Shown in pieces: positions 19,879-37,264 of a DNA stretch of 64,000 nucleotides. A program made the position numbers and the translations under genes. Every line of letters begins with the position of its first letter. The first letter of the stretch is position 1. The notes under the pieces are model-generated. The model saw only the letters and a list, made by a program, of their open reading frames with translations. It did no database searches and was not told the origin of the DNA. This DNA comes from Roseovarius autotrophicus (lineage in GTDB: Bacteria; Pseudomonadota; Alphaproteobacteria; Rhodobacterales; Rhodobacteraceae), in NCBI RefSeq assembly GCF_018069895.1, contig NZ_JAGQDH010000008.1:1-64000 (forward strand). Direction: 5' to 3'.

Positions 19879-20727
19879 TCATGCGGTCATGCCACGGGTA
19901 TACCGCCGTTCCAGCAGGCGAAAGACCAGCGTTATCAGCCCGGCGATCATCAGATAGACCACGGCCAGCATCAGCAGCGGTTCGTAGATGATGAAGGTGT
20001 CCTGCCGCACCCGGCTGGCCACGGCATAGATGTCGATGACCGTGATCGTAGCCACCAGCGGCGTCGCCTTCATCTGCAGAACCGTCTCGCCGCCAAGCGT
20101 GGGCAGGGCGCGTTGCAGGGCCTGCGGCAGCCAGATACGGCGCAGGATGGCGAAGCGTGACAGACCGAAGGCGCGCCCAGCCTCCAGTTGTCCATGCGGG
20201 ACCGAGCGGAACGCGCCGCGCATCACCTCGCCCTCGTATCCCGCATAGCTGAGTGTGAGCGCCAGCAACGCATAGGGCCATGCCTGCCGTAGATAGGGCC
20301 AAAGCTCGGATTCGCGTATCCAGGGGAACTGCGGGAACAGCGAGCCGAGTCCGAAATAAATCAGCCAAAGCTGCAGCAGCAGCGGTGTGCCGCGGATGAC
20401 CGTGCAGAACGCACGCGCCGGCGCCGCCAGAAAACGCGGCCCCGCCGCCTGCGCCAGCCCCAGCGGCACCGCCAGCATGAAGCCCAGCAGGCAGGAAAGC
20501 GCCAGCAACCACAGCGTGCGCCAGAACCCCTGTAGCGCCAGATCGGCATAGCGTGGGATCCAGTGCCAGCGCATCGTCATCCCGGCATAAACCGCGATCC
20601 CCAGTGCCAGCGCGATCAGCACCAGACGGTGCGGCTGCATCACCTCGCGCCAGAGGCTGCGCAACGCGTTGCCGGGAAGGGCGGCGGGCACCGGTGCATT
20701 GGGCGGAATATTTGTCGGGGCGCTCAC
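19879..20727 (-). CDS. Polar amino acid ABC permease (HisM-type)
   Basis: A 282-residue inner-membrane permease of the His/Glu/Gln/Arg family. It has five or six membrane helices and the conserved EAA-loop region GQLEAGRAFGLSRFAILRRI, which docks the ATPase. The GTG start at 20727 overlaps the stop of the first permease gene by 4 bases. The other two genes upstream encode the partner permease and the binding protein. No ATP-binding subunit is encoded with them. The context points to arginine, ornithine or a betaine-like cation as substrate, by inference. Confidence 0.88.
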   Translation of the reverse strand: MSAPTNIPPNAPVPAALPGNALRSLWREVMQPHRLVLIALALGIAVYAGMTMRWHWIPRYADLALQGFWRTLWLLALSCLLGFMLAVPLGLAQAAGPRFLAAPARAFCTVIRGTPLLLQLWLIYFGLGSLFPQFPWIRESELWPYLRQAWPYALLALTLSYAGYEGEVMRGAFRSVPHGQLEAGRAFGLSRFAILRRIWLPQALQRALPTLGGETVLQMKATPLVATITVIDIYAVASRVRQDTFIIYEPLLMLAVVYLMIAGLITLVFRLLERRYTRGMTA

Positions 20728-21482
20728 GGGTGCCCTCGTGTCGGCCCGGCCTCGCCCCGGCGGTAGCGCGCCTCGATCCAGCCGAACACCCGGCCCGAAA
20801 CCAGTGTCATCGTCAGGTAGATCGCCCCAGCCGCCAGAAAGAAGGTAAAGAAGGCCCGTGTCGATCCCGCCGCCTGTCTTGTTTCCAGCGTCAGTTCGGA
20901 AAATCCGACAATGGCCAGCAGTGCGGTGTCCTTGGTGGCGATCAGCCACAGGTTGGACAGCCCCGGCAACGCCAGTGGCAGCATGGAAGGGAACGTGACA
21001 CGGCGAAACAGCGTGATCGGTCCCATGCCATAGGCGCGCCCCGCTTCGATCTGGCCCTTGTCCACGGCCTGGATGGCACCGCGCAGCACCTCGGTCGCAT
21101 AGGCGCCCTGCACGGTGCCCAGCACGAAGATGCCCGCCGCCACGCCGGAAACCTCGACCGGGCGCTGCCCCATCGCGCGCAGTGCCTGGTTCAGCAGGTC
21201 GGTGCCCGCGTAATAGATGATCAGGATCAGGATCAGTTCCGGCACCGCGCGCACAACGGTCGTGTAGACCGACAACAGATCGCGCGTGACCGGCCCGCCG
21301 TTTAGCTTGCCCAGCGCGCCGAAGGTGCCAAGCACCAGCCCCATGCCGAAGGCCCCCGCCGCGATTTGCAGCGATGCCAAGGCACCCCGCAACAGGTTGC
21401 CCCCCCAACCCGGCGGGTGGAGGGACAGAAGCCCCGCCGTGGTTTCAAGCCCCGGTACGAGCGTGTAAAGCCAGTCCAGCAC
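20724..21482 (-). CDS. Polar amino acid ABC permease (HisQ-type)
   Basis: A 252-residue permease, partner of the next gene. The domain begins after a short N-terminal extension with LLRGALASLQIAAGAFGMGL, and the ATPase-contact EAA loop reads KGQIEAGRAYGMGPITLFRR. RAVPELILILIIYY is a typical HisQ-like helix. It follows the binding-protein gene after 12 bases and overlaps the second permease gene, so all three are one transcript. Confidence 0.9.
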   Translation of the reverse strand: MLDWLYTLVPGLETTAGLLSLHPPGWGGNLLRGALASLQIAAGAFGMGLVLGTFGALGKLNGGPVTRDLLSVYTTVVRAVPELILILIIYYAGTDLLNQALRAMGQRPVEVSGVAAGIFVLGTVQGAYATEVLRGAIQAVDKGQIEAGRAYGMGPITLFRRVTFPSMLPLALPGLSNLWLIATKDTALLAIVGFSELTLETRQAAGSTRAFFTFFLAAGAIYLTMTLVSGRVFGWIEARYRRGEAGPTRGHP

Positions 21483-21494
21483 GCGCGGCGCGGC

Positions 21495-22271
21495 TTACTG
21501 GTTGTAGGTGTAGATGGGCGAGTCGAAGTAGCGCGCGGTGATCTCGGCATGTGTGCCATCGGCGATGATGGTGGCGATACCGGCGTTGAGCGATTCGCGC
21601 AGCGCATCCTCTCCCGGCCGGACCCCGGCACCGACGCCGCGGCCCAGGATGCTCTCGTCCATTGCGACCGACCCCAGCAGGGTGCAGCAGTTGCCGAGAT
21701 CGGACGCCAGGAAGGCATCCATTGCCACGCTGTCGGCCTGCATTGCGTCGATGCGCCCGGCGGCGAGGTCCTGGTTGGCCTCGTCCTGGGTCTGGTACAG
21801 CCGCAGTTCGGTCGCGCCCTCGAAATATGCCTGCGCATAGGCCTGGTGCGTGGTCGCCACCTGCACGCCCAGCGCCAGCCCGGCCAGCCCCTCTGGCGTC
21901 GGTTCGACATCAACACCCTGACCACCGACAATCACCGCCGGGGTCTGGTAATAAGGGTTGGTGAAGTCGATCGTCTGCATCCGCTCTTCGGTAATCGACA
22001 TGGACGCCATGATCGCATCAATCCGCCCCGACAGCAGCGCCGGGATGATCCCGTCCCAGGCCGTGGGGGTCAGCACGCAGTCAAGCTCGGCGGCCGTGCA
22101 GATCGCGTCGATGATCTCGATCTCCCAGCCGGCCCAGTTGCCGGCCGCATCGGGCGAGGCGAAGGGCGGATAGGGCTCGGCCGCGATGCCGATGCGTACC
22201 TGATCGGCCATGGCGGTGGTGGCCATCGCCGCAAGCGCCGCGGCACCTGCCAGAGAAACAATTCTGTTCAT
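21495..22271 (-). CDS. Amino acid ABC binding protein
   Basis: A 258-residue periplasmic binding protein of the family 3 (polar amino acid) type with a Sec signal peptide (residues 1 to about 22, ending TTAMA). The mature part starts DQVRIGIAAEPYPPF and has the signature segments GWEIEIIDAIC, DGIIPALLSGRIDAIMASMSIT and TNPYYQTPAVIV. The start at 22271 has AGAGGAGAG just upstream. It is the first gene of the transporter operon and diverges from the amidinohydrolase gene. Charged-amino-acid binding is likely. Confidence 0.88.
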   Translation of the reverse strand: MNRIVSLAGAAALAAMATTAMADQVRIGIAAEPYPPFASPDAAGNWAGWEIEIIDAICTAAELDCVLTPTAWDGIIPALLSGRIDAIMASMSITEERMQTIDFTNPYYQTPAVIVGGQGVDVEPTPEGLAGLALGVQVATTHQAYAQAYFEGATELRLYQTQDEANQDLAAGRIDAMQADSVAMDAFLASDLGNCCTLLGSVAMDESILGRGVGAGVRPGEDALRESLNAGIATIIADGTHAEITARYFDSPIYTYNQ

Positions 22272-22433
22272 GGGTCTCTCCTCTGTTGTCGCACGCCCTT
22301 TTGTGGCGCGCTTCTTGTCTGCGTCACGCCGGGTCAGATGCGCCCGGCATGGTGAGGCCCGTGCGGGCCACGGCAAGGGCGGCTGACCGTGCCGCCCTGT
22401 CGAATTGCTATTGCATTAGGCCCCAGCCCGCGT

Positions 22434-22453
22434 AATTATGCAAGTGTATAATT
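22434..22453. promoter_or_regulatory. Candidate operator in divergent promoter
   Basis: AATTATGCA, AG, TGTATAATT is a near-perfect 20-base palindrome with one mismatch per arm. It lies 18 bases before the amidinohydrolase start and about 160 before the binding-protein start, in the only promoter region serving both operons. It could bind the TetR-family regulator encoded next door, or a GntR-type regulator. This is read from symmetry only. Confidence 0.5.
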
Positions 22454-22471: not shown

Positions 22472-23377
22472 ATGAGCCAGGAACCCATGCGCAAGACAGC
22501 GGCATTCGGCAGCGAGGACCGGGCGCACCCGCTTGCACGCGTGATCATGCGGGCACCCGGCCCGGCAATGGCTGCGGCCGACCCCGCGCAATGGCATTAC
22601 GGTCCGGGCTTCGACCCGGCGCGCGCGCAGGCGCAGCACGCGGCGCTGGCCGATATCGTTGCGGCCTCGGGCTGCGAGGTGATCTGGCTGGACAGCGCCG
22701 ATGACAGCTTGTCCGACGCCGTCTTCGTGCAGGACCCGTCTTTTGTAACCCACGCCGGCGCCGTGATCCTGAACATGGGAAAATCGCTGCGCCGAGCCGA
22801 ACCCACGCTGCACGAGACTACCTACCAGCGCCTAGGCGTGCCGGTGATCGGACGGTTGACCGGCGATGCGCGCGCCGAGGCGGGAGACGCTTTCTGGATC
22901 GACCCGCAGACGCTGGCCGTCGGGCGCGGCGCACGCACAAATCAGGCCGGAATTGCGGCGCTGGACGACATCCTGCGCCCGCATGGCATCACGGTGCGCG
23001 CCTATGACCTGCCCTGGTGGAGCGGGCCTGAAGCCTGCCTGCACCTGATGTCTCTGGTCTCACCCGTCGCGCCGAACGCGGCGCTGATCCATGCGCCGCT
23101 GATGCCCTTTGCCCTGTGGCAGGATCTGCGCGATGCAGGCTGGACGCTGATTCACGCGCCAGAGGCAGAGTTTCATGCCTCACAGGGCCTGAGCCTGAAT
23201 GTGCTGATGCTGAAGCCCTTTGATGTTGTGATGATCGACGGCTTTCCCCAAACGCGCGCCGCACTCGAAAAGGCCGGATGCCGGGTGCAGGTCTTTGAAG
23301 GCGACGCGCTGTGCATCGCCTGCGAAGGTGGGCCGACCTGCCTTACCCGCCCCCTGCTGCGCGCGGCGTGCGCGTGA
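22472..23377 (+). CDS. DDAH-like amidinohydrolase
   Basis: A 301-residue member of the guanidino-modifying superfamily (arginine deiminase, dimethylarginine dimethylaminohydrolase, amidinotransferase). The substrate-binding DAVFVQDPSF (residues 82-91), GRGARTN (151-157), His191 in ACLHLMS and the nucleophile Cys290 in GGPTCLTRP are in place. Such enzymes attack the guanidinium carbon of arginine, methylarginines or similar compounds. Whether this one releases an amine, ammonia or urea cannot be told. It is the first gene of a long operon and overlaps the TetR gene start by one base. Confidence 0.8.
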   Translation: MSQEPMRKTAAFGSEDRAHPLARVIMRAPGPAMAAADPAQWHYGPGFDPARAQAQHAALADIVAASGCEVIWLDSADDSLSDAVFVQDPSFVTHAGAVILNMGKSLRRAEPTLHETTYQRLGVPVIGRLTGDARAEAGDAFWIDPQTLAVGRGARTNQAGIAALDDILRPHGITVRAYDLPWWSGPEACLHLMSLVSPVAPNAALIHAPLMPFALWQDLRDAGWTLIHAPEAEFHASQGLSLNVLMLKPFDVVMIDGFPQTRAALEKAGCRVQVFEGDALCIACEGGPTCLTRPLLRAACA

Positions 23378-24006
23378 TGAACGCCCGGCGTCCCTTCCGC
23401 CGCAAGGGCGAAGAGACACGGCGCGCGGCGCTGATCGAGGCGGCGCTGGCCTGCATCGCCGAGGGGGGGCCGCAGGCTGCCACCGTGCGCGCCATCGCGC
23501 TGCGTGCTGGTGTCACGCAGGGGCTGATCCGGCATTATTTCGCCACCAAGGAAGATCTGATAGCCGCCGCTCATGACCATCTGATGACCGGCCTGACCGA
23601 GGCGAGCGCGGCGTCTCTGGGTGCGCTTCCGGCCGATCCGCGGGCGCGGCTCGAGGGCTTCGTGGCCAATGCGGTTTCGCCCCCGGTGGTTGATCCGCGC
23701 GCCATGGCACTATGGGCAGCATCGATGCAGCTGGTTGCCCGCGACCCGGCGATGCGCGAGGTGCATGAGCGCACCTATCGTGCCTTTCGCGACCAGCTGG
23801 AGGCGCTGATCGCCGATGCCTTGCAAACCACCGGCAGGCCAGCCGATCCGGCCACCACCCGGCGGCTGGCGATTGCCGGTAATGCTTTGCTGGACGGGCT
23901 ATGGCTGGAAGCCTCGGCCCTGCCGGAACAGTTGCCACCGGAAGAAGCCCGCGCGATTGCGATCGACGCCTTTGAATCCCTCCTTGGCCTTGAACTGAAA
24001 GAGTAA
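23377..24006 (+). CDS. TetR/BetI-type regulator
   Basis: A 209-residue TetR-family repressor. The helix-turn-helix region is residues 15-60: AALIEAALACIAEGGPQAATV, then RAIALRAGVTQGLIRHYFATK, close to BetI, the choline/betaine regulator. The rest is a ligand-binding all-helical domain. Its start codon overlaps the amidinohydrolase stop, and the transaminase gene follows after 3 bases, so it is inside the operon it probably controls. A betaine- or guanidino-type inducer is suggested by context. Confidence 0.87.
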   Translation: MNARRPFRRKGEETRRAALIEAALACIAEGGPQAATVRAIALRAGVTQGLIRHYFATKEDLIAAAHDHLMTGLTEASAASLGALPADPRARLEGFVANAVSPPVVDPRAMALWAASMQLVARDPAMREVHERTYRAFRDQLEALIADALQTTGRPADPATTRRLAIAGNALLDGLWLEASALPEQLPPEEARAIAIDAFESLLGLELKE

Positions 24007-24009
24007 GCG

Positions 24010-25188
24010 ATGCGCTATGCGGAAGTCACCGAGCGTCTGGCCGGTCTGGGGTCGGATAAATGGACGCTCTTTGTGGCGGCGACAGCGCGCAAGCGGGCCG
24101 GGCAGCCGGTCATCGACCTGACTATCGGCGAGCCTGACACCGCCACCCCTGACCATCTGATCCGGGCTGCTACCAGCGCGATGCAGGCGGGGCGGACCGG
24201 CTATTCCAACGGGCGTGGCGAGCCGGAGGCCCTGGCGGCGCTGAGCGCGCGCTATTCCGAAGCAACCGGGCGCCAGATCGGCGCCGACCGGTTCCTGTGT
24301 CTGCCGGGAACACAGACGGCACTTTATGTGGCGTTGATGGCGCTGTGCGACCCAGGTTGCGAGGTGATCCTTGGCGATCCGATGTATGCAACCTACGAGG
24401 GGCTGATCCGCGCTGCCGGTGCGCGGCCGGTGCCGGTGGCGCTGCGTCCCGAACACGGATTTCGCCTGCAGGCGGTTGATGTCGCGGCGCGGATCACGCC
24501 TGCCACGCGCGCAATCCTGCTCAACACTCCGCACAACCCCACCGGCGCGATCCTGAGCCTGGCAGATCTGGATGCCCTGCTCGCCACTGCCGCCAGGCAT
24601 GACCTGTGGGTGATCTCGGACGAGGTCTATGGCAACCTGACCCATGATGGCGCGGTTTTCACCTCGGCGCTGGCCGACCCGGCGCACGAGGCGCGGGTGG
24701 TCGTCGCCTCCTCGATCTCGAAATCACATGCGGCCACGGGCTTCCGCGCGGGCTGGCTGTGCGGATCGGCCGAGTTCTGCGCGCGCTCCTTGCCCCTGTC
24801 CGAGACCATGCTGTTCGGCTCGCAGCCCTTCATTGCCGACATGATGGCCGAAGCACTGGCCAGCCCGCCCACGTCTGCGCAGGCCATGGCCGCTCGTATG
24901 GCGCGGCGCGCGCGCATTGTTCACGAGGCGCTGGACGGCGTGGCAGGGCTGCGTGTGCACCGGCCTCAAGCGGGGATGTTCGCACTTGTCAACATTCGCG
25001 CGCTGAGCCGCGATTCGCAGGCTTTTGCACTGGACCTCCTGCACGCCACCGGGGTCGCGGTCATGCCCGGCGCGTCCTTCGGCACGGCGCTGGAAGGATG
25101 GTTGCGGTTGGCGCTGACCGCCAGCGATGACACAACCCGCGAGGCCTGCGCCCGCCTCGCCCGCTTTGCCGAAGGATGCCGGCCATGA
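24010..25188 (+). CDS. AruH-like arginine:pyruvate transaminase
   Basis: A 392-residue class I/II PLP-dependent aminotransferase. Lys238 in SSISKSHAATGFRAGW binds PLP; NTPHNPTGA and ISDEVYGNL are the usual cofactor motifs. General similarity would allow many substrates. The next gene, an AruI-like decarboxylase overlapping by 4 bases, argues for AruH, which makes 5-guanidino-2-oxopentanoate (2-ketoarginine) from arginine in Pseudomonas. Another cationic amino acid, such as an N-methylated one, remains possible. Confidence 0.75.
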   Translation: MRYAEVTERLAGLGSDKWTLFVAATARKRAGQPVIDLTIGEPDTATPDHLIRAATSAMQAGRTGYSNGRGEPEALAALSARYSEATGRQIGADRFLCLPGTQTALYVALMALCDPGCEVILGDPMYATYEGLIRAAGARPVPVALRPEHGFRLQAVDVAARITPATRAILLNTPHNPTGAILSLADLDALLATAARHDLWVISDEVYGNLTHDGAVFTSALADPAHEARVVVASSISKSHAATGFRAGWLCGSAEFCARSLPLSETMLFGSQPFIADMMAEALASPPTSAQAMAARMARRARIVHEALDGVAGLRVHRPQAGMFALVNIRALSRDSQAFALDLLHATGVAVMPGASFGTALEGWLRLALTASDDTTREACARLARFAEGCRP

Positions 25189-26726
25189 GCACGGTTGCGC
25201 AGGGTCTGGTGGACTGGCTGACATTGATGGGAACCGAGGTGATCTTCGGCATCCCCGGCGTGCACACGATCGAGCTGTATCGCGCGCTGCCCGGTGCCGG
25301 GATTCGCCATGTCACCCCGCGCCACGAAGCCGGCGCAGGCTTCATGGCCGATGGCTATGCGCGCGCTTCTGGCCGTTTTGGCGTGGCACTGGTGATCACC
25401 GGACCGGGGCTGACCAACATCCTGACGCCGATGGCACAGGCGCGCGCCGATTCCGTGCCTATGCTGGTCATCTCGGGCGTCAACCAGCGCGATGCGCTGG
25501 GCAAGGGGTGCGGGCATTTGCACGAACTCCCCGATCAGCAGGCGCTGGTCGCCAAGCTGTGCCCCTCTTTCCACCTGGACCAGGCCGAAGACCTGCCTGC
25601 CACGCTGGCGCAGATCGCACAGGCGCTGACCACGGGGCGCCCGGGGCCGGTGCATCTGCAGATCCCGCTTGATCTGATGGCGGCCCCGTTGCCCGGTCAG
25701 CTCGCGCCCTTCGTCGCCGCCACCGCCCCGTCGCCAGACCTGACTCAGGCCAACCGCCTGCTGGCACAGGCACAGACACCCGTCATCCTTGCCGGTGGCG
25801 GGTGTCGCGGTGCGGGCAGCGCGCTGAAGGCATTGGCCGAGCGGCTGGGCGCGCCGGTCATCCTGACCACAAATGCACGCGGCCTGATGCACGGACACCC
25901 GCTTGGCGTGCCGGCCTCGCCCAGCCTCGGCGCGGTGCGGGATCTGATCCGCAACGCCGACCGGTTGCTGGTGCTGGGCTCGGAACTGGGCCGCACCGAC
26001 TGCGATATGGTCGAGGATGGCAAGTTTCCCGCGACCGACGGCATGATCCGCGTCGATATAGACCCCGACCAACTGGCCCGGCACCCCGCCGCGCTGACAG
26101 TGCAGGCTGATGTCGCAACCATCCTGCCCCGGCTGACTCGTGCCATGCCCGCAGCGGATGGCCCCGCCCGCGCCGCGCATACGCGCGACGCGGCAAGGGC
26201 CGCACTACCCGCTGGGTATGAAGCTGAAGTTGTCCTGCTGGAGCGGCTGCGCGAAGGCTGTCCCGGCGCCATCATGGTGGGCGATTCCACGCAGGTCATC
26301 TATGCCGGCAACCTGTTCTACGATCACGACCGCCCCGGCGGCTGGTTCAACGCCGCCACCGGATACGGCGCGCTGGGCTATGCACCCGGCGCCGCCGTGG
26401 GGGCAGCACTGGCGGCGCCCGAAGCGCGCATCCTGTGCCTGATCGGTGATGGCGGGCTGATGTTCTCGCCCGGAGAGTTGCTGACCGCCGCCGAGGAAGG
26501 GCTGGATATCACCTTCATCGTGTTCAACAATGCGGGCTTTGGCGAGATCGCCACGGCGATGCGTTCGGCAGGCGCGCAGGTGCTGGGCTGCACGCCGCGC
26601 CCTCCCGATTTCGCTGATCTTGCCAGCGCCTGCGACCTGCCTTTTGAACGGGTGACCCCGCAGGCCCTGCAGATCACCGGGTCGGGGCCGCGTCTGATTG
26701 AAGTGACGCTGCCCCCTGTGCAGTAA
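25185..26726 (+). CDS. AruI-like 2-ketoarginine decarboxylase
   Basis: A 513-residue ThDP-dependent enzyme close in sequence to 5-guanidino-2-oxopentanoate decarboxylase (AruI). The N-terminal domain shows FGIPGVHTIELYRAL and the catalytic-Glu segment TPRHEAGAGFMADGYAR; the C-terminal ThDP-binding motif is GDGGLMF to NNAGF. AruI turns 2-ketoarginine into 4-guanidinobutyraldehyde. The Met at 25185 overlaps the transaminase stop (ATGA) and has AAGGA upstream. No aldehyde dehydrogenase to finish the route is encoded nearby. Confidence 0.8.
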   Translation: MSTVAQGLVDWLTLMGTEVIFGIPGVHTIELYRALPGAGIRHVTPRHEAGAGFMADGYARASGRFGVALVITGPGLTNILTPMAQARADSVPMLVISGVNQRDALGKGCGHLHELPDQQALVAKLCPSFHLDQAEDLPATLAQIAQALTTGRPGPVHLQIPLDLMAAPLPGQLAPFVAATAPSPDLTQANRLLAQAQTPVILAGGGCRGAGSALKALAERLGAPVILTTNARGLMHGHPLGVPASPSLGAVRDLIRNADRLLVLGSELGRTDCDMVEDGKFPATDGMIRVDIDPDQLARHPAALTVQADVATILPRLTRAMPAADGPARAAHTRDAARAALPAGYEAEVVLLERLREGCPGAIMVGDSTQVIYAGNLFYDHDRPGGWFNAATGYGALGYAPGAAVGAALAAPEARILCLIGDGGLMFSPGELLTAAEEGLDITFIVFNNAGFGEIATAMRSAGAQVLGCTPRPPDFADLASACDLPFERVTPQALQITGSGPRLIEVTLPPVQ

Positions 26727-26813
26727 ACAGTGCAACCGGCCCGTATAGGCCAGCGCCACGAGACCAAACGGCGGTCAGGAATCGACCGATCGCCTGAAAG
26801 AGGGGAGAAAAGG

Positions 26814-27722
26814 ATGCCATTGAGCATGAACCGCGAGGTGTTCATCACCTGTGCCGTGACCGGTTCGGGCGGTACGCAGCACAAATCGCCCCATGTGCCG
26901 CGCTCGCCGGAGCAGATTGCCGCCTCGGCCATCGACGCGGCAAAGGCGGGCGCGGCGGTGGTGCATTGCCATGTGCGCGACCCCGAAACCGGGGCGCCGG
27001 CGCGCGACCCCGCGCTTTACCGCGAGGTGACAGAGCGCATCCGCGATGCCGAGGTCGATGTGGTGCTGAACCTGACCGCAGGCATGGGCGGCGATCTGAC
27101 GCTGGGCGGCACCGACAGTCCGCTGCCCCCGATTGCCGGCACAGACATGATCGGTGCCGCCGAGCGCGTGCAACATGTGGTAGACTGTCGGCCAGAGCTG
27201 TGCACCCTCGATTGCGGCACGATGAACTTTGCCGAGGCTGATTATATCATGGTCAATACGCCGGGCATGCTGCGCGATATGGCGCAGCGGATGGCGGCAA
27301 GCGGCACGCGCATCGAGATCGAAGCCTTTGATACCGGGCATCTGTGGTTCGCGAAACAACTGGTGGCCGAAGGGATCATCGCCGACCCGGTGCTGGTGCA
27401 ACTGTGCATGGGGGTGCCCTGGGGCGCGCCGGATGACCTGAATACCTTCATGGCGATGGTCAACAACGTGCCGGCGGGCTGGCACTGGTCGGCCTTTGCG
27501 CTGGGGCGCAACGAGATGCCCTATGTCGCGGCCTCGGTTCTGGCCGGCGGCAATGTGCGCGTGGGGCTGGAGGACAACCTGTATCTTGAAAAGGGCGTTC
27601 TGGCTACCAACGCGCAACTGGTCGAGCGCGCGGTAACCATCGTCGAGGCGATGGGCGCGCGGGTGATCGGCCCGGACGCATTGCGCGAGCGGCTGAAACT
27701 GGAGAAAAGGGCACCGCTATGA
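26814..27722 (+). CDS. BKACE, dehydrocarnitine cleavage type
   Basis: A 302-residue beta-keto acid cleavage enzyme (BKACE, formerly DUF849), a zinc-dependent TIM-barrel family that condenses a beta-keto acid with acetyl-CoA to give acetoacetate and a new acyl-CoA. The zinc motif is in VVHCHVRDPETG, and EAFDTGHL and AMVNNVPAGWHWS are family hallmarks. Overlap of its stop with the carnitine dehydrogenase fusion gene identifies it as the CdhC type, making betainyl-CoA from 3-dehydrocarnitine. The ATG at 26814 follows a purine-rich AGAGGGGAGAAAAGG site; 87 bases separate it from the decarboxylase. Confidence 0.82.
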   Translation: MPLSMNREVFITCAVTGSGGTQHKSPHVPRSPEQIAASAIDAAKAGAAVVHCHVRDPETGAPARDPALYREVTERIRDAEVDVVLNLTAGMGGDLTLGGTDSPLPPIAGTDMIGAAERVQHVVDCRPELCTLDCGTMNFAEADYIMVNTPGMLRDMAQRMAASGTRIEIEAFDTGHLWFAKQLVAEGIIADPVLVQLCMGVPWGAPDDLNTFMAMVNNVPAGWHWSAFALGRNEMPYVAASVLAGGNVRVGLEDNLYLEKGVLATNAQLVERAVTIVEAMGARVIGPDALRERLKLEKRAPL

Positions 27723-29179
27723 AGGCGGCCATCATCGGCGGCGGTGTCATCGGGGGCGGCTGGGCGGCGCGGTTCCTGCTCAACGGCTGGGATGTCGCGG
27801 TATTCGATCCTGACCCGGAGGCCCCGCGCAAGCTGGACGCGATCCTGCAGAACGCCCGCGCCAGCCTGCCCGCGCTGTCCGACCTGCCCATGCCGACCGA
27901 GGGGCGGCTGCGCTTCGCCGACACATTGGCCGAGGCGGTCACGGGGGCCGATTACATCCAGGAATCCGTGCCCGAACGGCTGGAAATGAAACACCGTGTC
28001 TATGCCGAGATCCAGCGCGCGACCCCGGATGTGCCGCTGGGCTCGTCCACATCGGGCTTCAAGCCTTCCGAACTGCAGAAGGGCGCGCGCCACCCATCGG
28101 CGATCTTCGTCGCGCATCCGTTCAACCCGGTCTACCTGCTGCCACTGGTCGAAATCGTGCCCGGCCCGACCCATGACAAGGCGCTGATCACGCGTGTCAA
28201 GAACCTGCTGCGCGACCTGGGCATGTTCCCGCTGCATCTGCGCCGCGAGATTGATGCGCATATCGCCGACCGGTTCCTGGAAGCCGTCTGGCGAGAGGCG
28301 CTGTGGCTGGTCAGAGACGGCATCGCCACGACCGGCGAAATCGACGAGGCGATCCGAATGGGCTTTGGCCTGCGCTGGGCGCAGATGGGCCTGTTCGAAA
28401 CCTACCGCATCGCCGGAGGCGAGGCGGGGATGAAGCACTTCATGGCCCAGTTCGGCCCCTGCCTGACCTCGCCCTGGACGAAACTGATGGATGTGCCCGA
28501 ATTCAACGACGAACTGGTCGATCTGATCGCAAGTCAGTCCGACGTGCAATCGGGCCATCACACGATAGCCGATCTGGAACGCATTCGCGACGGCAACTTG
28601 ATCGGCTTCCTGCGCGTCCTGAAAGATCGTGATTGGGGCGCCGGAAAGGTCTTGCGCGACCATGACGCGAGACGCAGAACCGCGATTCCCGCCCCCGCCC
28701 TGATACCCGACGCCGCGGCGCCATTGGTGCTGACGCAGATGCAGGTCCTGCCGGGGTGGATCGATCACAATGGGCACATGACCGAAAGCCGCTATCTGTT
28801 CGCGGCGTCCGAAACCTCGGACGCGCTGCTGCGGCTCATCGGGGCCGATATGGACTATGTCGCCGGCGGGCACAGCTATTACACCGCCGAAAGCCATATC
28901 ACGCATCTGGGCGCAGCAAAGCTTGGCGATCACCTGACCGGGACGGTGCAGGTGTTGGGCGCAGATGAAAAACACATGCATATCGTCATCACCATCGCGC
29001 GCCAGGATACGCCCGTCGCCATGGTCGAACAGATGCTGCTGCATGTGGACATGACAGCGGGCCAGACCTGCCCGGCCGCGCCTGCGGTGCTGGACCGGCT
29101 GCTGCCGATCCGCGATGCCCATGCCGCGCTGCCGCGCCCGGCCCAGGCAGGCCGCCATGTCGGACAAAGGAAAAACTGA
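27719..29179 (+). CDS. Carnitine dehydrogenase-thioesterase fusion
   Basis: A 486-residue two-domain enzyme. Residues 1 to about 315 are a 3-hydroxyacyl-CoA dehydrogenase-type L-carnitine dehydrogenase (CdhA/LcdH): Rossmann loop IIGGGVIGGGWAARF, VPERLEMK and the catalytic-His segment VAHPFNPVYLLPLVE. Residues about 340-465 are a hotdog-fold thioesterase, with DHNGHMTESRY as its typical active-site stretch, matching the CdhB betainyl-CoA thioesterase. The fusion links oxidation of carnitine to hydrolysis of the betainyl-CoA made by the neighbouring BKACE. Start and stop overlap both neighbours. Confidence 0.85.
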   Translation: MKAAIIGGGVIGGGWAARFLLNGWDVAVFDPDPEAPRKLDAILQNARASLPALSDLPMPTEGRLRFADTLAEAVTGADYIQESVPERLEMKHRVYAEIQRATPDVPLGSSTSGFKPSELQKGARHPSAIFVAHPFNPVYLLPLVEIVPGPTHDKALITRVKNLLRDLGMFPLHLRREIDAHIADRFLEAVWREALWLVRDGIATTGEIDEAIRMGFGLRWAQMGLFETYRIAGGEAGMKHFMAQFGPCLTSPWTKLMDVPEFNDELVDLIASQSDVQSGHHTIADLERIRDGNLIGFLRVLKDRDWGAGKVLRDHDARRRTAIPAPALIPDAAAPLVLTQMQVLPGWIDHNGHMTESRYLFAASETSDALLRLIGADMDYVAGGHSYYTAESHITHLGAAKLGDHLTGTVQVLGADEKHMHIVITIARQDTPVAMVEQMLLHVDMTAGQTCPAAPAVLDRLLPIRDAHAALPRPAQAGRHVGQRKN

Positions 29180-30342
29180 TGCATTTTGCCCTCACCGACG
29201 AACAGCGCATGATTTCTGATACCACGCGCGCCTTCGTTGAAGCAGAACTCTACCCGCATGAAGCATTGGTCGAACGAACCGGCCACCTGCCAATGGAGAT
29301 CATCCGCGAGGTCCAGGCCAAGGCGATCAAGGCCGGGCTCTACGCCGCGAACATGCCCGAGGATGTCGGCGGCGCGGGCCTCGATACGCTGAGTTGGCTG
29401 CTCTATGAGCGCGAGCTGGGGCGTGCGAACTATGCGCTGCACTGGACTTGCGTGGCGCGGCCCTCGAACATCCTGCTGGCCGGCACCGCGTCGCAGCGCG
29501 AGAAATACCTCTACCCCTGCATACGTGGCGAGACCTGGGACTGCCTTGCCATGACCGAACCCGGCGCCGGATCGGACTTGCGCGGGATGCAGGCAACCGC
29601 CCGCCCGGACGGTAGTGACTGGGTGCTGAACGGTACCAAGCATTTCATCAGCCACGCCGATATCGCGGGCTTCACCATCGCCTTCATGGCCACCGGCACC
29701 GAGGACACGCCGCGCGGACCAAAGAAACGGATCACCGCCTTCTTTGTCGACAAGGGCACGAAAGGCTTTAGCGTCAGAGAGGGCTATCGCAACGTCAGCC
29801 ATCGTGGCTATACCAACGCGATCCTTGAATTCGACGACTGCCGCGTGCCGGTGGAGAACATTCTTGGCGAGCTTCACAAGGGCTTCGACGTGGCCAATAA
29901 ATGGCTGGGTGCCACCCGGCTGCAGGTGGCCGCGACCTGCCTGGGCCGTGCAAACCGGGCGCTGCGTCTCGCCCTTGGCCATGCGGTCGACCGCCGACAG
30001 TTCGGCCAGCAGATCGGCAAGTTCCAGGGCGTCAGTTTCAAGTTGGCCGATATGGCGCTGGAACTGAAAGCCGCAGAGTTGCTGACATGGGAAGCGGGCT
30101 GGAAAGTCGATCAGGGCAGTGTGACGGATGCCGACATGGCGATGGCCAAACTAAAGGCCAGCGAGGTTCTCGCCATGGTAGCGGATGAAGCGATCCAGAT
30201 CCACGGCGGTATGGGACTGATGGAAGAACTGCCACTTGAACGGATCTGGCGCGATGCGCGGCTGGAAAGGATATGGGAAGGCACCAGCGAGATTCAGCGC
30301 CACATCATCAGTCGTGAATTGCTGAGACCGCTTGGAGGCTGA
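29179..30342 (+). CDS. Acyl-CoA dehydrogenase (butyrobetainyl-CoA type?)
   Basis: A 387-residue FAD-dependent acyl-CoA dehydrogenase. Signatures include LAMTEPGAGSDL, GTKHFISHADIAGF, the arginine-containing QFGQQIGKFQGVSFKLADM and the C-terminal ERIWEGTSEIQRHII with the usual catalytic Glu. Its start overlaps the fusion gene's stop (TGATG). Given the hydratase and CoA ligase downstream, it most likely oxidises gamma-butyrobetainyl-CoA, or a similar cationic C4 acyl-CoA, to the crotonyl analogue. The substrate is inferred from context. Confidence 0.8.
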   Translation: MHFALTDEQRMISDTTRAFVEAELYPHEALVERTGHLPMEIIREVQAKAIKAGLYAANMPEDVGGAGLDTLSWLLYERELGRANYALHWTCVARPSNILLAGTASQREKYLYPCIRGETWDCLAMTEPGAGSDLRGMQATARPDGSDWVLNGTKHFISHADIAGFTIAFMATGTEDTPRGPKKRITAFFVDKGTKGFSVREGYRNVSHRGYTNAILEFDDCRVPVENILGELHKGFDVANKWLGATRLQVAATCLGRANRALRLALGHAVDRRQFGQQIGKFQGVSFKLADMALELKAAELLTWEAGWKVDQGSVTDADMAMAKLKASEVLAMVADEAIQIHGGMGLMEELPLERIWRDARLERIWEGTSEIQRHIISRELLRPLGG

Positions 30343-30378
30343 AAAGAAGGCGACAGGGGGGCGTCTGCCCCGCTGGAG

Positions 30379-30407
30379 CCCCCCAGGATACTTGAGGACA
30401 GAAAATG
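30379..30407 (+). repeat. 29-bp inverted repeat, left arm
   Basis: This arm is the exact reverse complement of 30524-30552. It belongs to a larger element (about 30357-30407) that opens with a GC-rich hairpin, GGGGGGCGTCTGCCCC, and ends in TTGAGGACAGAAAATG. Elements of this general form are common between genes in Rhodobacterales genomes. It lies right after the acyl-CoA dehydrogenase stop. Confidence 0.85.
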
Positions 30408-30523
30408 CGGCACGTTAACGGACTCTCAACCCTGTCTTGTCACTCTGAACTCACGGTACAGGCGGGGACGCCGATGACCGTGGCAGGAAATGGCACCCGG
30501 TTCCTTCCGGAATCGGGTGTTCC

Positions 30524-30552
30524 CATTTTCTGTCCTCAAGTATCCTGGGGGG
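30524..30552 (-). repeat. 29-bp inverted repeat, right arm
   Basis: Exact reverse complement of 30379-30407, belonging to a second copy of the same element in opposite orientation, which also carries the GC-rich hairpin (GGGGGGCAACGCCCCCC at about 30571-30587). The 116 bases between the arms hold an imperfect hairpin (about 30494-30519) and no gene. The pair could fold into a long cruciform between acyl-CoA dehydrogenase and CoA ligase genes. Confidence 0.85.
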
Positions 30553-30607
30553 TGAATGCGAAGCAGAGGGGGGCAACGCCCCCCTTCTTTGCCCGACGGG
30601 GCGGCGA

Positions 30608-32608
30608 ATGAACGATCTGTCCCGCCTTCTTCGTCCGCGCAGCATCGCTGTTCTTGGTTCTGGCTGGGCCGAGAATGTCGTCGCGCAATCGCGAAGCATG
30701 GGGTTCGATGGGCCAGTCTGGCCTGTTCACCCGGTGCGGCGCCAGATTGCCGGCGTTCCCTGCCATCGCAGCCTTGCCGACCTGCCCGGTGCACCGGACG
30801 CAACCTTCATCGGTGTCAATCGCCATGCAACGCTGGAGATTGTCACGCAGCTTGCCGAGATGGGCGCGGGTGGCGCGGTGTGTTTTGCCTCAGGCTGGCG
30901 CGAGGCGGGGGAGGGGCATCTTCAGGACCGACTCCTGAGTGCGGCCGGGGCCATGCCTTTGCTGGGGCCGAACTGCTATGGTCTGATCAACTACCTGGAC
31001 GGGGCGCTGCTCTGGCCGGATCAGCACGGCGGACGGCGCGTCACGCACGGGGTGGCGCTGATCAGCCAGTCCTCGAACATCGCGATCAACCTGACCATGC
31101 AGGCGCGCGGCCTGCCGATCGCCTATGTCGCCTGTCTGGGCAATGCCGCGCAGATCGGCCTGGCGGAACTGGCCGGAGCGGTACTGGCGGATGAGCGCGT
31201 GACCGCTCTGGGCCTTTATCTGGAGGGTTTGGGCAATGCTGCGGCCTTTGCTGCCGTCGCGCAGGCGGCGCAGGCGGCCGGCAAAGGCATCGTGGCGATC
31301 AAGTCCGGCAAGACCGAAGCAGCGCGCACGGCTGCCGCCTCGCACACTGCCGCCATGACCGGGCCGGCGGTTACCTCCTCGGCCTTTTTGCACCGGATCG
31401 GTGTAGCCGAGGTGAGCACGCCCGCCGAGCTGATCGAGACGCTGAAGATCCTGCATCTTCACGGGCAGGGGCTGGGCCGGCGGCTGTGTTCACTGTCCTG
31501 CTCGGGCGGCGAGGCCGGGCTTGTGGCGGATCTGGGGGATGCGGCAGGGCTGCAGTTTCCGCCCCTTTCCGAGCCACGCCGTGTGCAGCTTGCGGCCAGC
31601 TTGGGCCCGCTGGTCACCATCTCGAACCCGCTGGATTATCACACCTTCATCTGGGGTGACGGGCCGCGCATGGCAGAGGTCTTTACCACCATGCTGGCCG
31701 ACCATGATGCCGGCATCTTTCTGATCGACCCGCCGCGCCCGGACCGTTGTGACCCGTCAAGCTTCGAGCCTGCGCTGCAGGCCATCGCCACTGCCGCGCA
31801 GGCCACGGGCAAGCCCGCTTTTCCCGTCGCCTCGCTGCCCGAGAATTTTGACGAGGGCCGCGCGATCACTCTGATGGATCAGGGGATTGCGCCCCTTATG
31901 GGGGTGGAGACCGCGTTGGCCGCGATCCGGGCGGCGCAGCTTCCGCCCCGGCGCGAGGGCTGGAAAAACTGGGCACCCGTTACGCGCCATGGCCGGTTGT
32001 CGCTGCTGGACGAGGCGGTTGCCAAGGCCATGCTGGCCGAGGCAGGCGTCGCTGTGCCCCGCGGGGTGCGCGCTGACAGTTTGGCCGAATTGCGCGCACA
32101 TGCTGCAGGGCTGACGCCCCCCCTGGCGCTGAAGGGGCTGGGCTTTGCTCACAAGACCGAGGCTGGGGCGGTGCGTCTGAACCTGTCCTCGCTCGACGGG
32201 CAGGCCGGGATGCGAGGTGCGACCGGCTATCTGGCCGAGGAGATGGTGACCGACGCCTTGAGCGAAATGCTGATCGGCGCGCGGCGCGACCCGATCTATG
32301 GTGCCACGCTTATACTGGGCTTCGGTGGCGTAGCGGCAGAGTTGCTTGGTGATACGGCAACACTGGTCTTGCCGGTGACGGCAGCGGATGTCACGCAGGC
32401 GCTGCGCGGCTTGCGGTTGTGGCCACTGCTGGACGGCTACCGCGGGCGCAGGCGGGCCGACACCGCGGCTGTCGTGGCCGTGGCACTGGCCTTGCAGGCC
32501 CTGCTGGAGGCTGATTCGCGGCTGGAAGAGATAGAGATCAACCCGCTGATGGTGCGGGACAGCGGCGCCATTGCCGTGGATGCGGTGATTTGGAGGGAAA
32601 ACACATGA
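30608..32608 (+). CDS. NDP-forming acyl-CoA ligase
   Basis: A 666-residue fused alpha-beta acyl-CoA synthetase of the ADP-forming acetate-CoA ligase type. The N-terminal CoA-binding domain starts at LLRPRSIAVLGSG; GPNCYGLIN and the phospho-His segment AASHTAAMTGP follow; the C-terminal ATP-grasp half contains PLALKGLGFAHKTEAGAV and EIEINPLMV. It would activate the pathway acid, such as gamma-butyrobetaine, with CoA. Its stop overlaps the hydratase start (ATGA). The relatively long gap before it contains the inverted repeats. Confidence 0.82.
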   Translation: MNDLSRLLRPRSIAVLGSGWAENVVAQSRSMGFDGPVWPVHPVRRQIAGVPCHRSLADLPGAPDATFIGVNRHATLEIVTQLAEMGAGGAVCFASGWREAGEGHLQDRLLSAAGAMPLLGPNCYGLINYLDGALLWPDQHGGRRVTHGVALISQSSNIAINLTMQARGLPIAYVACLGNAAQIGLAELAGAVLADERVTALGLYLEGLGNAAAFAAVAQAAQAAGKGIVAIKSGKTEAARTAAASHTAAMTGPAVTSSAFLHRIGVAEVSTPAELIETLKILHLHGQGLGRRLCSLSCSGGEAGLVADLGDAAGLQFPPLSEPRRVQLAASLGPLVTISNPLDYHTFIWGDGPRMAEVFTTMLADHDAGIFLIDPPRPDRCDPSSFEPALQAIATAAQATGKPAFPVASLPENFDEGRAITLMDQGIAPLMGVETALAAIRAAQLPPRREGWKNWAPVTRHGRLSLLDEAVAKAMLAEAGVAVPRGVRADSLAELRAHAAGLTPPLALKGLGFAHKTEAGAVRLNLSSLDGQAGMRGATGYLAEEMVTDALSEMLIGARRDPIYGATLILGFGGVAAELLGDTATLVLPVTAADVTQALRGLRLWPLLDGYRGRRRADTAAVVAVALALQALLEADSRLEEIEINPLMVRDSGAIAVDAVIWRENT

Positions 32609-33402
32609 TGCAAATGCGCAGCGACGGGCCGGTGCGGACGCGGGCCGAGGGTGCCATTCTGGAAGTCACGCTAGACCGGCCAAAGGCCAATGCCATCGAT
32701 CTGGCCACCAGCCGGATCATGGGCGATGTCTTCCGCGATTTCCGCGATGACGACAGCCTGCGTGTGGCGATCCTGCGCGCTGAGGGGGGAAAGTTCTTCT
32801 GCCCTGGCTGGGACCTGAAGGCTGCGGCCGAAGGCGACGCCGTTGACGGCGATTACGGGGTTGGTGGTTTTGGCGGGCTGCAGGAACTGCCGCATCTGAA
32901 CAAACCCGTTATTGCGGCTGTCAACGGCATCTGCTGTGGCGGCGGGCTGGAACTGGCGCTGAGCTGCGATCTGATCCTTGCCTCGGACAATGCCAGTTTT
33001 GCGCTGCCGGAAATCCGTTCCGGCACGGTGGCCGATGCCGCTACCCTGAAGCTGCCAAAGCGCATTCCCTATCATGTGGCAATGGACCTGCTGTTGACCG
33101 GGCGCTGGTTCGATACCGCCGAGGCGCTGCAATGGGGCCTGTTGAAGGAAGTGACCACATCAGAGGACCTGCTGCCCAGAACCTGGGATCTGGCGCGCCT
33201 TCTGGCCAGCGGCCCGCCGCTTGTCCATGCCGCGATCAAGGAGGTGGTGCGCGAGGCCGAGGACATGCGCTTTCAGGATGCGCTGAACCGCATCACCAAG
33301 CGCCAGTTCGAGACCGTGGACAGGCTGTATTCCAGCGAAGACCTGCTTGAGGGCGCGCGCGCCTTCGCTGAAAAGCGTGATCCGGTCTGGAAAGGACGCT
33401 GA
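32605..33402 (+). CDS. Carnitinyl-CoA dehydratase-like hydratase
   Basis: A 265-residue crotonase-fold enzyme. The oxyanion-hole segments are FFCPGWDLKAAAEGD and NGICCGGGLELALSCDL, with catalytic acidic residues expected at GGLELA and FALPEIRSG. It resembles CaiD/enoyl-CoA hydratases and would add water to crotonobetainyl-CoA to give carnitinyl-CoA. GGAGGG precedes the ATG at 32605, which lies within the ligase stop. It is the last gene of the operon; IS remnants follow. Confidence 0.82.
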   Translation: MMQMRSDGPVRTRAEGAILEVTLDRPKANAIDLATSRIMGDVFRDFRDDDSLRVAILRAEGGKFFCPGWDLKAAAEGDAVDGDYGVGGFGGLQELPHLNKPVIAAVNGICCGGGLELALSCDLILASDNASFALPEIRSGTVADAATLKLPKRIPYHVAMDLLLTGRWFDTAEALQWGLLKEVTTSEDLLPRTWDLARLLASGPPLVHAAIKEVVREAEDMRFQDALNRITKRQFETVDRLYSSEDLLEGARAFAEKRDPVWKGR

Positions 33403-33831: not shown

Positions 33832-34021
33832 GTTCTACGCACGCACCCCGTTAAAAAGGGGGAGAGCACGATTGAAATCAGGGGCCGCGCGGCAGAATTG
33901 AGCAAGATCGCAAGTGGCCAGCGCCGCCAAGGCGCAAATCGCGGTCGCCGGTGTCATAACGTCGCCCAAGCAGGCTGTTCAGTCCCTGCCGCGGAACACG
34001 CAAAGATTGGATGGAGACATC

Positions 34022-35824: not shown

Positions 35825-36151
35825 GCGACCGCCGCATGCCCCGACAATCCACGCGCCAACCGTCCCGCCGTCACACCGCTCCAACTGCCCCGGAGGGATG
35901 CCACGACTGCCTGCCATGTTCTTGCGCAGGAGCACCGGCCCGTGCCCGAGTCCTTCGCGCTTGATCATACCAGAGCACGAAACCAGCGCGGATCCTCAAT
36001 TATGCAGGCAGTAGCGCGGCCAACTTGGAAGCCGGGCCGTCCACAATGCACGCAAGCGCATTGGCTGGACTTGTCAAATGCAGGTCAAGCTGTTCTTCTG
36101 CGCTTCTGATTGAAGCGTTTGCACCATAAAAGACAAAGGGGGGAGACCGAA
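35825..36151. other. Intergenic region, no gene seen
   Basis: This 327-base stretch between ftsH and the TAXI receptor gene has no convincing reading frame. Near its end, CTTGTC and GTCAAG (about 36069-36088) form a weak inverted repeat about 65 bases before the receptor start and could be part of a promoter or operator. Nothing else was recognised. Confidence 0.5.
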
Positions 36152-37120: not shown

Positions 37121-37264
37121 GCCTGTACTCCATGGCTGTAGCAGAGTGACATGCACGATCCGGGCGCGCGCCAAACGACGTCAGCGCGCGCCCTTTCCCT
37201 GTAATGCGCATGCGCGAGGTCGAGCTGTGTCGCTTCCGCCTCGATACCCGACATCGGAGACTCG

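Follow-up and report, generated by a model that had tools for sequence, protein, structure and literature searches.

Within a 64,000-nucleotide stretch of DNA from Roseovarius autotrophicus (contig NZ_JAGQDH010000008.1, positions 1 to 64,000; hereafter termed the window), nine adjacent genes and a divergently oriented importer appear to combine two sets of degradative genes. The first set, module A, comprises the ABC importer, a hydrolase (DDAH') that resembles dimethylargininase (DDAH), a TetR regulator, an aminotransferase (AT) and an AruI-type decarboxylase (DC). The second set, module B, is the standard gene set for conversion of gamma-butyrobetaine and carnitine to glycine betaine, and consists of BKACE, a carnitine 3-dehydrogenase (CDH) fused to a thioesterase (CDH-TE), an acyl-CoA dehydrogenase (ACAD), an NDP-forming acyl-CoA ligase and an enoyl-CoA hydratase. 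We propose that these genes form a composite degradation operon in which module A is metabolically continuous with module B in some form, and we estimate the probability of this arrangement to be approximately 0.5. From sequence data we infer the single transcript, the metabolic continuity, the binding of TetR to its operator and the identities of all substrates.

Recurrent association of the two modules

One line of evidence for a composite operon is that the same union occurs elsewhere. Module B genes were found in 11 of 80 DC loci, each from a separate genome record; by title, these are Tabrizicola, Paramesorhizobium, Stappia, Hoeflea, Ochrobactrum, Peteryoungia, Roseicyclus, two Rhodobacteraceae, an Aurantimonadaceae metagenome-assembled genome (MAG) and a single-cell genome (SAG). 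These loci are the 80 that rank highest, among 590 confirmed stretches, by likeness to the window's DC, and therefore 11/80 does not represent a random sample; they were retrieved with flanks of up to 10 kb, and 20 of the 80 are shorter than 21 kb. Chance placement of one or two 7-kb operons would be expected to yield 0.4-1.1 such loci, given Poisson estimates that assume random gene placement and treat the loci as independent. Within a family sample of 70 other genomes that carry the DC, 65 also carry the ligase and 57 have a listed position for it (18 on the same contig). DC and ligase reside within 10 kb of each other in four of these 57 genomes (G443, G430, G517 and G165; 0.3 expected) and at 25-36 kb in three more, where eight genomes that have the ligase but no listed position were left out of the 4/57 and 7/57 counts, and where a second ligase match in each of G462 and G364 is unlisted. 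Given this recurrence, a neighbourhood created purely by chance is unlikely, and the observation becomes more interesting than one odd operon would be.

Several arrangements of the linked genes are evident. Single-strand arrays are present in the window, L227, L235 and L236. The L236 array carries substrate-binding protein (SBP)-permease-AT-DC-BKACE-CDH-ACAD-ligase-hydratase, which is the window's enzyme order, and both L227 and L235 carry AT-DC-ACAD-ligase-hydratase-hydratase. Elsewhere, the ligase part of module B lies beside the importer (L184, L197, L228, G443), BKACE-CDH lies on the importer's side (L169, L219), or B genes are divergent from DC (L232, G517). In some genomes ligase-ACAD-hydratase is tied to module A and BKACE-CDH resides on another contig (L184/L275, L227/L272, G443). 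On an annotated plasmid of Sulfitobacter sp. W027, the whole of module B is found next to ABC-TetR-AT-DC-DDAH, with the importer lying between B and the TetR-AT-DC-DDAH genes. Some of our loci are pairs or groups from the same genome (L279/L169, L280/L236, L281/L216, L277/L278/L228).

Two of these loci merit further description. The array of L236 (L236:6173-17606; SAG AG-435-K15, ~1.8 Mb; 40% GC) holds the SBP, permease and AT-to-hydratase genes on one strand. The contig of L235 starts inside AT and continues with AT-DC-ACAD-ligase-hydratases, and one short contig (L273; contig C37 of G534) carries BKACE-CDH, DDAH', SBP and permeases, such that L273 and L235 are perhaps one cluster split by assembly.

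Module A is also found on its own. An AT that is 53-58% identical to that of the window occurs in 13 of 35 genomes of the same genus, and in all 12 of the loci fetched with flanks TetR precedes AT; an importer gene is near in 10 of these, although one of the 10 (L035) has a 60-residue permease match only. The nearest relatives of module A among named records are Pararhodobacter sp. CCB-MM2 and the MAG HLUCCA12, whose DDAH', TetR, AT and DC are 67-75% identical to those of the window. Both have the layout ABC / DDAH'-TetR-AT-DC, with no carnitine genes within the fetched stretch. Shinella sp. PSBB067 exhibits this same layout, and Rhizobium sp. AB2/73 exhibits it without DC. The order importer / TetR-AT-DC-DDAH is found in Phaeobacter inhibens M628, Ruegeria pomeroyi DSS-3 and Sulfitobacter sp. 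W027, and in the records for M628 and DSS-3 the terminal gene is annotated as 'arginine deiminase family protein'. Overall, DDAH' is present in 31 of the 80 DC loci and true DDAH in nine, eight of which have it at the operon tail.

Module B likewise has an existence of its own. The arrangement BKACE-CDH-ACAD-ligase-hydratase, or one close to it, is common across the genus and the family; the ligase is present in 234 of 394 family genomes, and all five genes occur together in L097, L098, L110, L111, L113, L242, L267, L269 and L271. The nearest relative of module B among the loci examined is L271 (74-90% identical), which belongs to a genome (G523) that is outside the table of genomes with DC at E<=1e-115. 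The array in the window thus looks as if it was assembled from two blocks, each of which occurs by itself at other loci.

Clustering of the open reading frames (ORFs) from the 80 loci revealed that other non-core families reach more loci than the module B genes do. Several of these widespread families represent one genus by title (e.g. Mesorhizobium) or comprise spurious-looking ORFs. An amidohydrolase family has members in several genera, which is also the case for the module B genes, and lies beside the module A importer in 15 of the 80 loci (e.g. L195:3254-4447, L227:3621-4793). The two members scanned are of the M20 type, which suggests an N-acylated substrate. Another variation is observed in 12 Mesorhizobium loci (L175, L176, L179, L187, L188, L190, L198, L203, L206, L213, L223 and L225), in which DC is present and no AT was detected. 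Near the importer, each of the 12 carries a member of a common gene family, and the one member scanned is an Ldh_2-type dehydrogenase that perhaps provides another way to the keto acid.

Proteins encoded by the array

An earlier note, made from the DNA letters alone, described nine genes running in one direction between positions 22472 and 33402, and named two halves and their chemistry. Both descriptions were borne out when identities were assigned with Pfam and NCBIfam models (Table 1). Its statement that most gene ends overlap or nearly touch holds for six of the eight junctions when the likely starts are used, with 87 nt preceding BKACE and 265 nt preceding the ligase as the departures. 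The TetR gene more likely starts at 23377, where its ATG overlaps the hydrolase stop codon by one base (TGATG), and an ATG is found at each of the likely starts of BKACE (26814) and the hydratase (32605). The source genome (G000) comprises 3.68 Mb over 83 contigs.

Table 1. Features of the array and its surroundings in the window.
Feature	Coordinates	Strand	Supporting match or remark
ABC permease (BPD_transp_1), second of two	19879..20670	-	PF00528; tblastn matches to permeases of relatives' syntenic importers
ABC permease, first of two	20724..21482	-	Same cluster (c0) as relatives' importer permeases
SBP, lysine/arginine/ornithine type	21495..22376	-	TIGR01096, 2.4e-62, 210.7 bits (under cut-off of 256)
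Palindrome, 20 nt, AATTATGCAAGTGTATAATT, presumed TetR operator	22434..22453	.	0 mismatches to AATTATRCNNNNGYATAATT
DDAH-like guanidino-group hydrolase (DDAH')	22472..23377	+	NF045660, 2.1e-22 (below cut-off)
TetR-family regulator, BetI-type C-terminal domain	23377..24006	+	PF13977, 2.6e-21; PF00440
Class I/II aminotransferase (AT)	24010..25188	+	PF00155, 8.3e-64; syntenic homologues in relatives
Thiamine diphosphate (ThDP)-dependent decarboxylase, 5-guanidino-2-oxopentanoate type (AruI-like, DC)	25176..26726	+	NF005712
BKACE, presumed dehydrocarnitine type	26814..27722	+	PF05853, 335.4 bits (versus 24.8)
Carnitine 3-dehydrogenase fused to thioesterase (CDH-TE)	27719..29179	+	NF005716; PF02737, PF13279
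Acyl-CoA dehydrogenase (ACAD), presumed gamma-butyrobetainyl-CoA	29179..30342	+	PF00441/02770/02771
Inverted repeat, 44 nt, 84% complementary, 116-nt spacer	30364..30567	.	Between ACAD and ligase genes
Terminator-like hairpin	30492-30521		Inside the inverted-repeat region
NDP-forming acyl-CoA ligase, presumed gamma-butyrobetaine	30608..32608	+	PF13549, PF13607, PF13380 (above cut-offs)
CaiD-like enoyl-CoA hydratase	32605..33402	+	NF002936

Some of the names given previously to module A proteins require adjustment. The product of the first gene, which had been called an amidinohydrolase, is a divergent relative of dimethylargininase within the DDAH/arginine-deiminase superfamily. It passes PF02274 (49.4 bits versus 22.8) and remains below the cut-offs of the dimethylargininase models NF045660 (80.1 bits; cut-off 340) and NF045658 (61.5 bits; cut-off 450). 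Its nearest solved chains by sequence are DDAH, and it is 29-30% identical to three true DDAHs. Residues E136, H191, C290, D82, D88, R107 and R155 are invariant among nine aligned sequences, and we take C290, H191 and E136 to be the catalytic Cys-His-Glu and D82 and D88 to be guanidine-binding aspartates. The description of the regulator as TetR/BetI-like is retained with regard to the TetR family and a BetI-type C-terminus, but not BetI itself, for which the score (94.7 bits) is under that demanded by TIGR03384 (201.3 bits). The best NCBIfam match of AT is GntC (248 bits; cut-off 415), and no AruH model is among the best 25 of 80 families. The match of DC to NF005712 (624.2 bits; cut-off 500) agrees with its prior designation as an AruI-like decarboxylase.

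Module B proteins resemble those of carnitine operons in relatives. The fusion of carnitine dehydrogenase to a thioesterase, which had been recognized in the earlier note, scores 742.7 bits against NF005716 (cut-off 592), and is the sole copy in the genome at E<=1e-40. BKACE is 58-83% identical to the BKACE proteins of relatives' carnitine operons, ACAD is 59-90% identical to the corresponding dehydrogenases, and the hydratase is 69-87% identical to the corresponding hydratases. ACAD does not reach the cut-off of the CaiA-type model NF002885 (166.2 bits; cut-off 540). Similarly, the previously proposed CaiD-like hydratase scores 297.8 bits against NF002936 (cut-off 500), and its CaiD role is taken from operon context alone. 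For the ligase, a search of the genome at E<=1e-110 gave a single match.

Alignments of CDH-TE, BKACE, ACAD, ligase and hydratase yielded zero columns that separate sequences linked to module A from unlinked sequences at 80% consistency. These comparisons employed 13-16 sequences from linked loci and 8-16 from unlinked loci for each protein; the 'linked' L265, L267 and L269 lie 25-36 kb from DC, and L275 and L276 were classed as unlinked even though the ligase part is linked in their genomes. Proteins from the window differ from otherwise 93%-conserved columns at one to six positions per module B protein. Searches of open-access literature for carnitine-dehydrogenase active-site residues yielded no useful lead. 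Given the lack of separating residues and the single CDH-TE, module B most simply still serves the gamma-butyrobetaine/carnitine route, and these sequences thus probably retain trimethylammonium chemistry. A second B set, paralogous and dedicated to guanidino compounds, is unlikely, given the single CDH-TE and ligase in the genome, the single CDH in most linked genomes and the absence of a separating column. Searches for CDH at E<=1e-60 in 14 linked genomes revealed one match in 12 and two matches in the other two (the fifteenth linked record, Sulfitobacter sp. W027, is a plasmid only). The single CDH in 12 of 14 genomes indicates that module B is shared rather than a spare copy.

Control of the array and the case for continuity

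The divergent ABC importer upstream of the nine genes was not mentioned in the earlier note. The upstream boundary of its second permease is approximate, and lies inside ORF 19879-21408. By using tblastn, no ABC ATPase gene like those of relatives was found beside the SBP in the window, L151 or L166; the matches in the window are distant ones only, at 51-52.5 kb.

The palindrome resides between the importer and the DDAH'/TetR genes, ahead of DDAH'. Sites with <=3 mismatches to AATTATGCAAGYGTATAATT occur in 60 of the 109 loci scanned, and 56 of these are located <=1.5 kb from a module A gene, compared with one site in 60 shuffled loci. Some genomes contribute two stretches to the 109 loci, or a single stretch fetched twice (L151/L161), and the sites in L201, L236, L263 and L280 resemble chance matches. 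On the basis of this conservation, AATTATGCAAGYGTATAATT is presumably the operator of this TetR family, and the presumed repressor-operator pair offers a handle on the inducer and hence on the substrate. The palindrome precedes module A only, with a single copy in the genome at <=3 mismatches, and module B would thus be under TetR only via read-through. Control of module B through a second operator was considered and rejected, as none was found in the loci scan or the whole genome.

The regulator that usually accompanies module B is missing from the window. A GlxA/AraC gene is present in 28 of 30 other BKACE loci, at <=4 kb from BKACE in 21 and at >4 kb in seven (counted from 32 loci, with the window and L270, which has no BKACE, left out). 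None was found in the window's 64 kb at E<=1e-15. The two other BKACE loci that lack it are L094 and L280, the latter being part of the distant single-cell genome AG-435-K15 (L236) that has the same enzyme order as the window. Without this usual neighbour, module B would probably be read through from the module A promoter, and a single transcript across all nine genes is likely. A promoter scan of the region yielded zero promoters anywhere and is therefore insensitive here. The 24-nt core of the inverted repeat between ACAD and ligase has no further copy in the genome at <=2 mismatches. Downstream of the operon are genes for an FtsH-type protease (33914-35824), and then a TAXI-type SBP and TRAP permease (36110-39091), none of which were matched in the relatives' carnitine loci searched.

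A number of observations weigh against metabolic continuity. A and B are apart in 69 of the 80 DC loci as fetched, and DC and ligase are on different contigs or >40 kb apart in 50 of the 57 family genomes. Among 12 other genomes of the same genus with DC at E<=1e-90, all nine with at least 53% identity are unlinked, with CDH on another contig (seven) or >240 kb away (two). Of the three with 41-45% identity, G086 (41%) is linked, with its hydratase 9.2 kb from DC; the two halves are 122 kb apart in G107 and on different contigs in G091. No B genes adjoin A in G362, L166, Shinella or Rhizobium AB2/73, which share the same A layout. The array lacks an aldehyde dehydrogenase, as had been noted before: none was detected among the nine genes with Pfam or NCBIfam, and the nine PF00171 matches in the genome (one just 116 positions long) are all on other contigs. 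Furthermore, no relative-type ATPase gene adjoins the SBP, the 265-nt gap with its terminator-like hairpin sits within module B, and the presumed operator is placed before module A alone. L094 also lacks the regulator beside B, though no module A is seen there. Finally, DDAH or DDAH' suggests a guanidino substrate, while module B resembles ordinary carnitine enzymes.

Several of these observations are expected if the two modules operate independently, with module A serving the breakdown of arginine or methylarginines, module B that of carnitine and gamma-butyrobetaine, and no intermediate in common. Module A would then yield GABA and urea via a genomic ureohydrolase, and clustering would result from organisms meeting both kinds of compound. 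This explanation is plausible, if not the one we favour. It accords with the separation of A and B in most genomes, with the operator ahead of A only, with the lack of B genes within the stretches fetched around A in its nearest relatives (G362/L161 and L166), and with the nearest relative of B (L271) residing in a genome outside the DC table. Moreover, three arginase-family matches in the genome might process 4-guanidinobutyrate. However, independent modules do not readily account for linkage that exceeds the rough chance estimate and takes several arrangements, for the single-strand arrays of L227, L235, L236 and the window, for ligase-ACAD-hydratase remaining with A when BKACE-CDH is on another contig, or for the missing B regulator in both the window and L280/L236. 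With regard to the single unified pathway of the earlier note, the finding that relatives mostly carry the halves apart weakens this claim, whereas linkage above the rough chance estimate allows the idea of a link to survive.

Candidate substrates and relation to known systems

If a composite operon is indeed formed, the importer and TetR would control the DDAH-like hydrolase, the transaminase and the 2-oxo-acid decarboxylase. Module A is predicted to convert a cationic amino acid of the arginine/ornithine type to a C4 aldehyde with a cationic end, which an aldehyde dehydrogenase encoded elsewhere would oxidise to a C4 cationic acid for delivery to module B. There, the ligase, ACAD and hydratase would generate a 3-hydroxy compound that is oxidised by the dehydrogenase-thioesterase, and exchange with acetyl-CoA by BKACE would give acetoacetate and a cationic acyl-CoA shortened by two carbons. 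The thioesterase would free the acid, which is glycine betaine if the head group is trimethylammonium. Three versions that differ in substrate are named sub-cases of this continuity.

One version begins with arginine or N-methylarginine and proceeds to 4-(methyl)guanidinobutyrate, which module B would shorten to (methyl)guanidinoacetate, with the DDAH-like enzyme hydrolysing a guanidino intermediate. We consider this unlikely, despite the facts that DC passes the 5-guanidino-2-oxopentanoate decarboxylase model, that two types of DDAH recur among DC loci, that the importer is of the lysine/arginine/ornithine type (albeit under the model's cut-off), and that an agmatinase-family (ureohydrolase) gene is located ~1.6 kb beyond the L236 array. 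Such a route is disfavoured by the reported preference of the S. meliloti decarboxylase IlvB1 for the ornithine-derived keto acid (PMC7268258). In addition, the absence of a separating column and the single CDH-TE give no sign that module B was re-tuned to a guanidino head group, and thus the guanidinoacetate route raised in the earlier note is unsupported by the B sequences.

Trimethyllysine is near arginine in length and could also be the starting compound. AT and DC would produce 5-trimethylammoniopentanal and then delta-valerobetaine, which module B would treat as a homologue of gamma-butyrobetaine. One report (PMC11773067) indicates that mammalian BBOX accepts delta-valerobetaine, but also that the published microbial delta-valerobetaine route uses DavB and DavA. 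Module B would need activity on a C5 chain, no sequence evidence points to this version, and we regard it as very improbable.

A third version, likewise doubtful as a specific proposal, starts with N-delta-trimethylornithine, which is the head group of trimethylornithine lipids (PMC7828035). Import, transamination and decarboxylation would yield 4-trimethylammoniobutanal, followed by gamma-butyrobetaine, carnitine and glycine betaine. This route demands no non-canonical substrate of any module B enzyme, and it fits the reported preference of IlvB1 for an ornithine-length keto acid. As reported (PMC7268258), the S. meliloti transaminase AspC is promiscuous, acting on Arg, Orn, agmatine and putrescine, and the AruI homologue IlvB1 encoded downstream is also promiscuous and functions 7-fold better with 5-amino-oxopentanoate. 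If the window's pair behaves alike, such promiscuity would allow an ornithine-length substrate here. The amidohydrolase family seen at 15 of the 80 loci could release the amino acid from an N-acylated precursor, and the DDAH-type hydrolase would serve co-imported methylarginines. The DDAH-type hydrolases by themselves appear to point to guanidino compounds, in conflict with this ornithine-length line of argument.

Each half of the array represents a known kind of pathway. Our search of open-access literature, which was non-exhaustive, found no description of a recurrent A-B union. The union hints that carnitine metabolism may be entered by a route not yet described. If A feeds B, then bacteria would possess a route from a basic amino acid to gamma-butyrobetaine/carnitine-type metabolism by transamination and decarboxylation, and it would become directly testable whether carnitine enzymes are promiscuous toward further cationic acids.

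The catabolism of L-carnitine and gamma-butyrobetaine in S. meliloti was reportedly described by Bazire et al. in 2019. Module A has a close parallel in the roseobacter ABC-TetR-AT-DC-DDAH clusters of R. pomeroyi DSS-3 and P. inhibens M628, which share the importer, TetR, AT, DC and a DDAH-family hydrolase, and whose divergent promoter contains a similar palindrome (0 mismatches in L149, three in L150). These clusters carry true DDAH at the tail, whereas the window carries DDAH' at the head, and, in contrast to the window, the stretches fetched for them have no carnitine genes listed. A second parallel is the arginine transaminase pathway (AruH/AruI in Pseudomonas aeruginosa and AspC/IlvB1 in Sinorhizobium meliloti; PMC7268258), in which an aminotransferase is followed by an AruI-type ThDP decarboxylase. 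In the window, this pair is accompanied by a DDAH-like hydrolase, a dedicated TetR and a divergent importer, with carnitine genes downstream; in S. medicae (L220), ABC-TetR-AT-DC is found with no B in the fetched stretch. Module B parallels both the S. meliloti carnitine system (as cited in PMC12482172) and the P. aeruginosa caiX-cdhCAB-hocS operon (PMC5806209), each of which employs BKACE and a carnitine dehydrogenase with thioesterase function. In many relatives, the ligase, ACAD and hydratase share an operon with BKACE-CDH. A divergent gene for an AraC-family regulator, CdhR, accompanies the P. aeruginosa operon (PMC5806209), whereas none is seen in the window. In contrast to these known carnitine operons, module B of the window follows an arginine-type decarboxylase.

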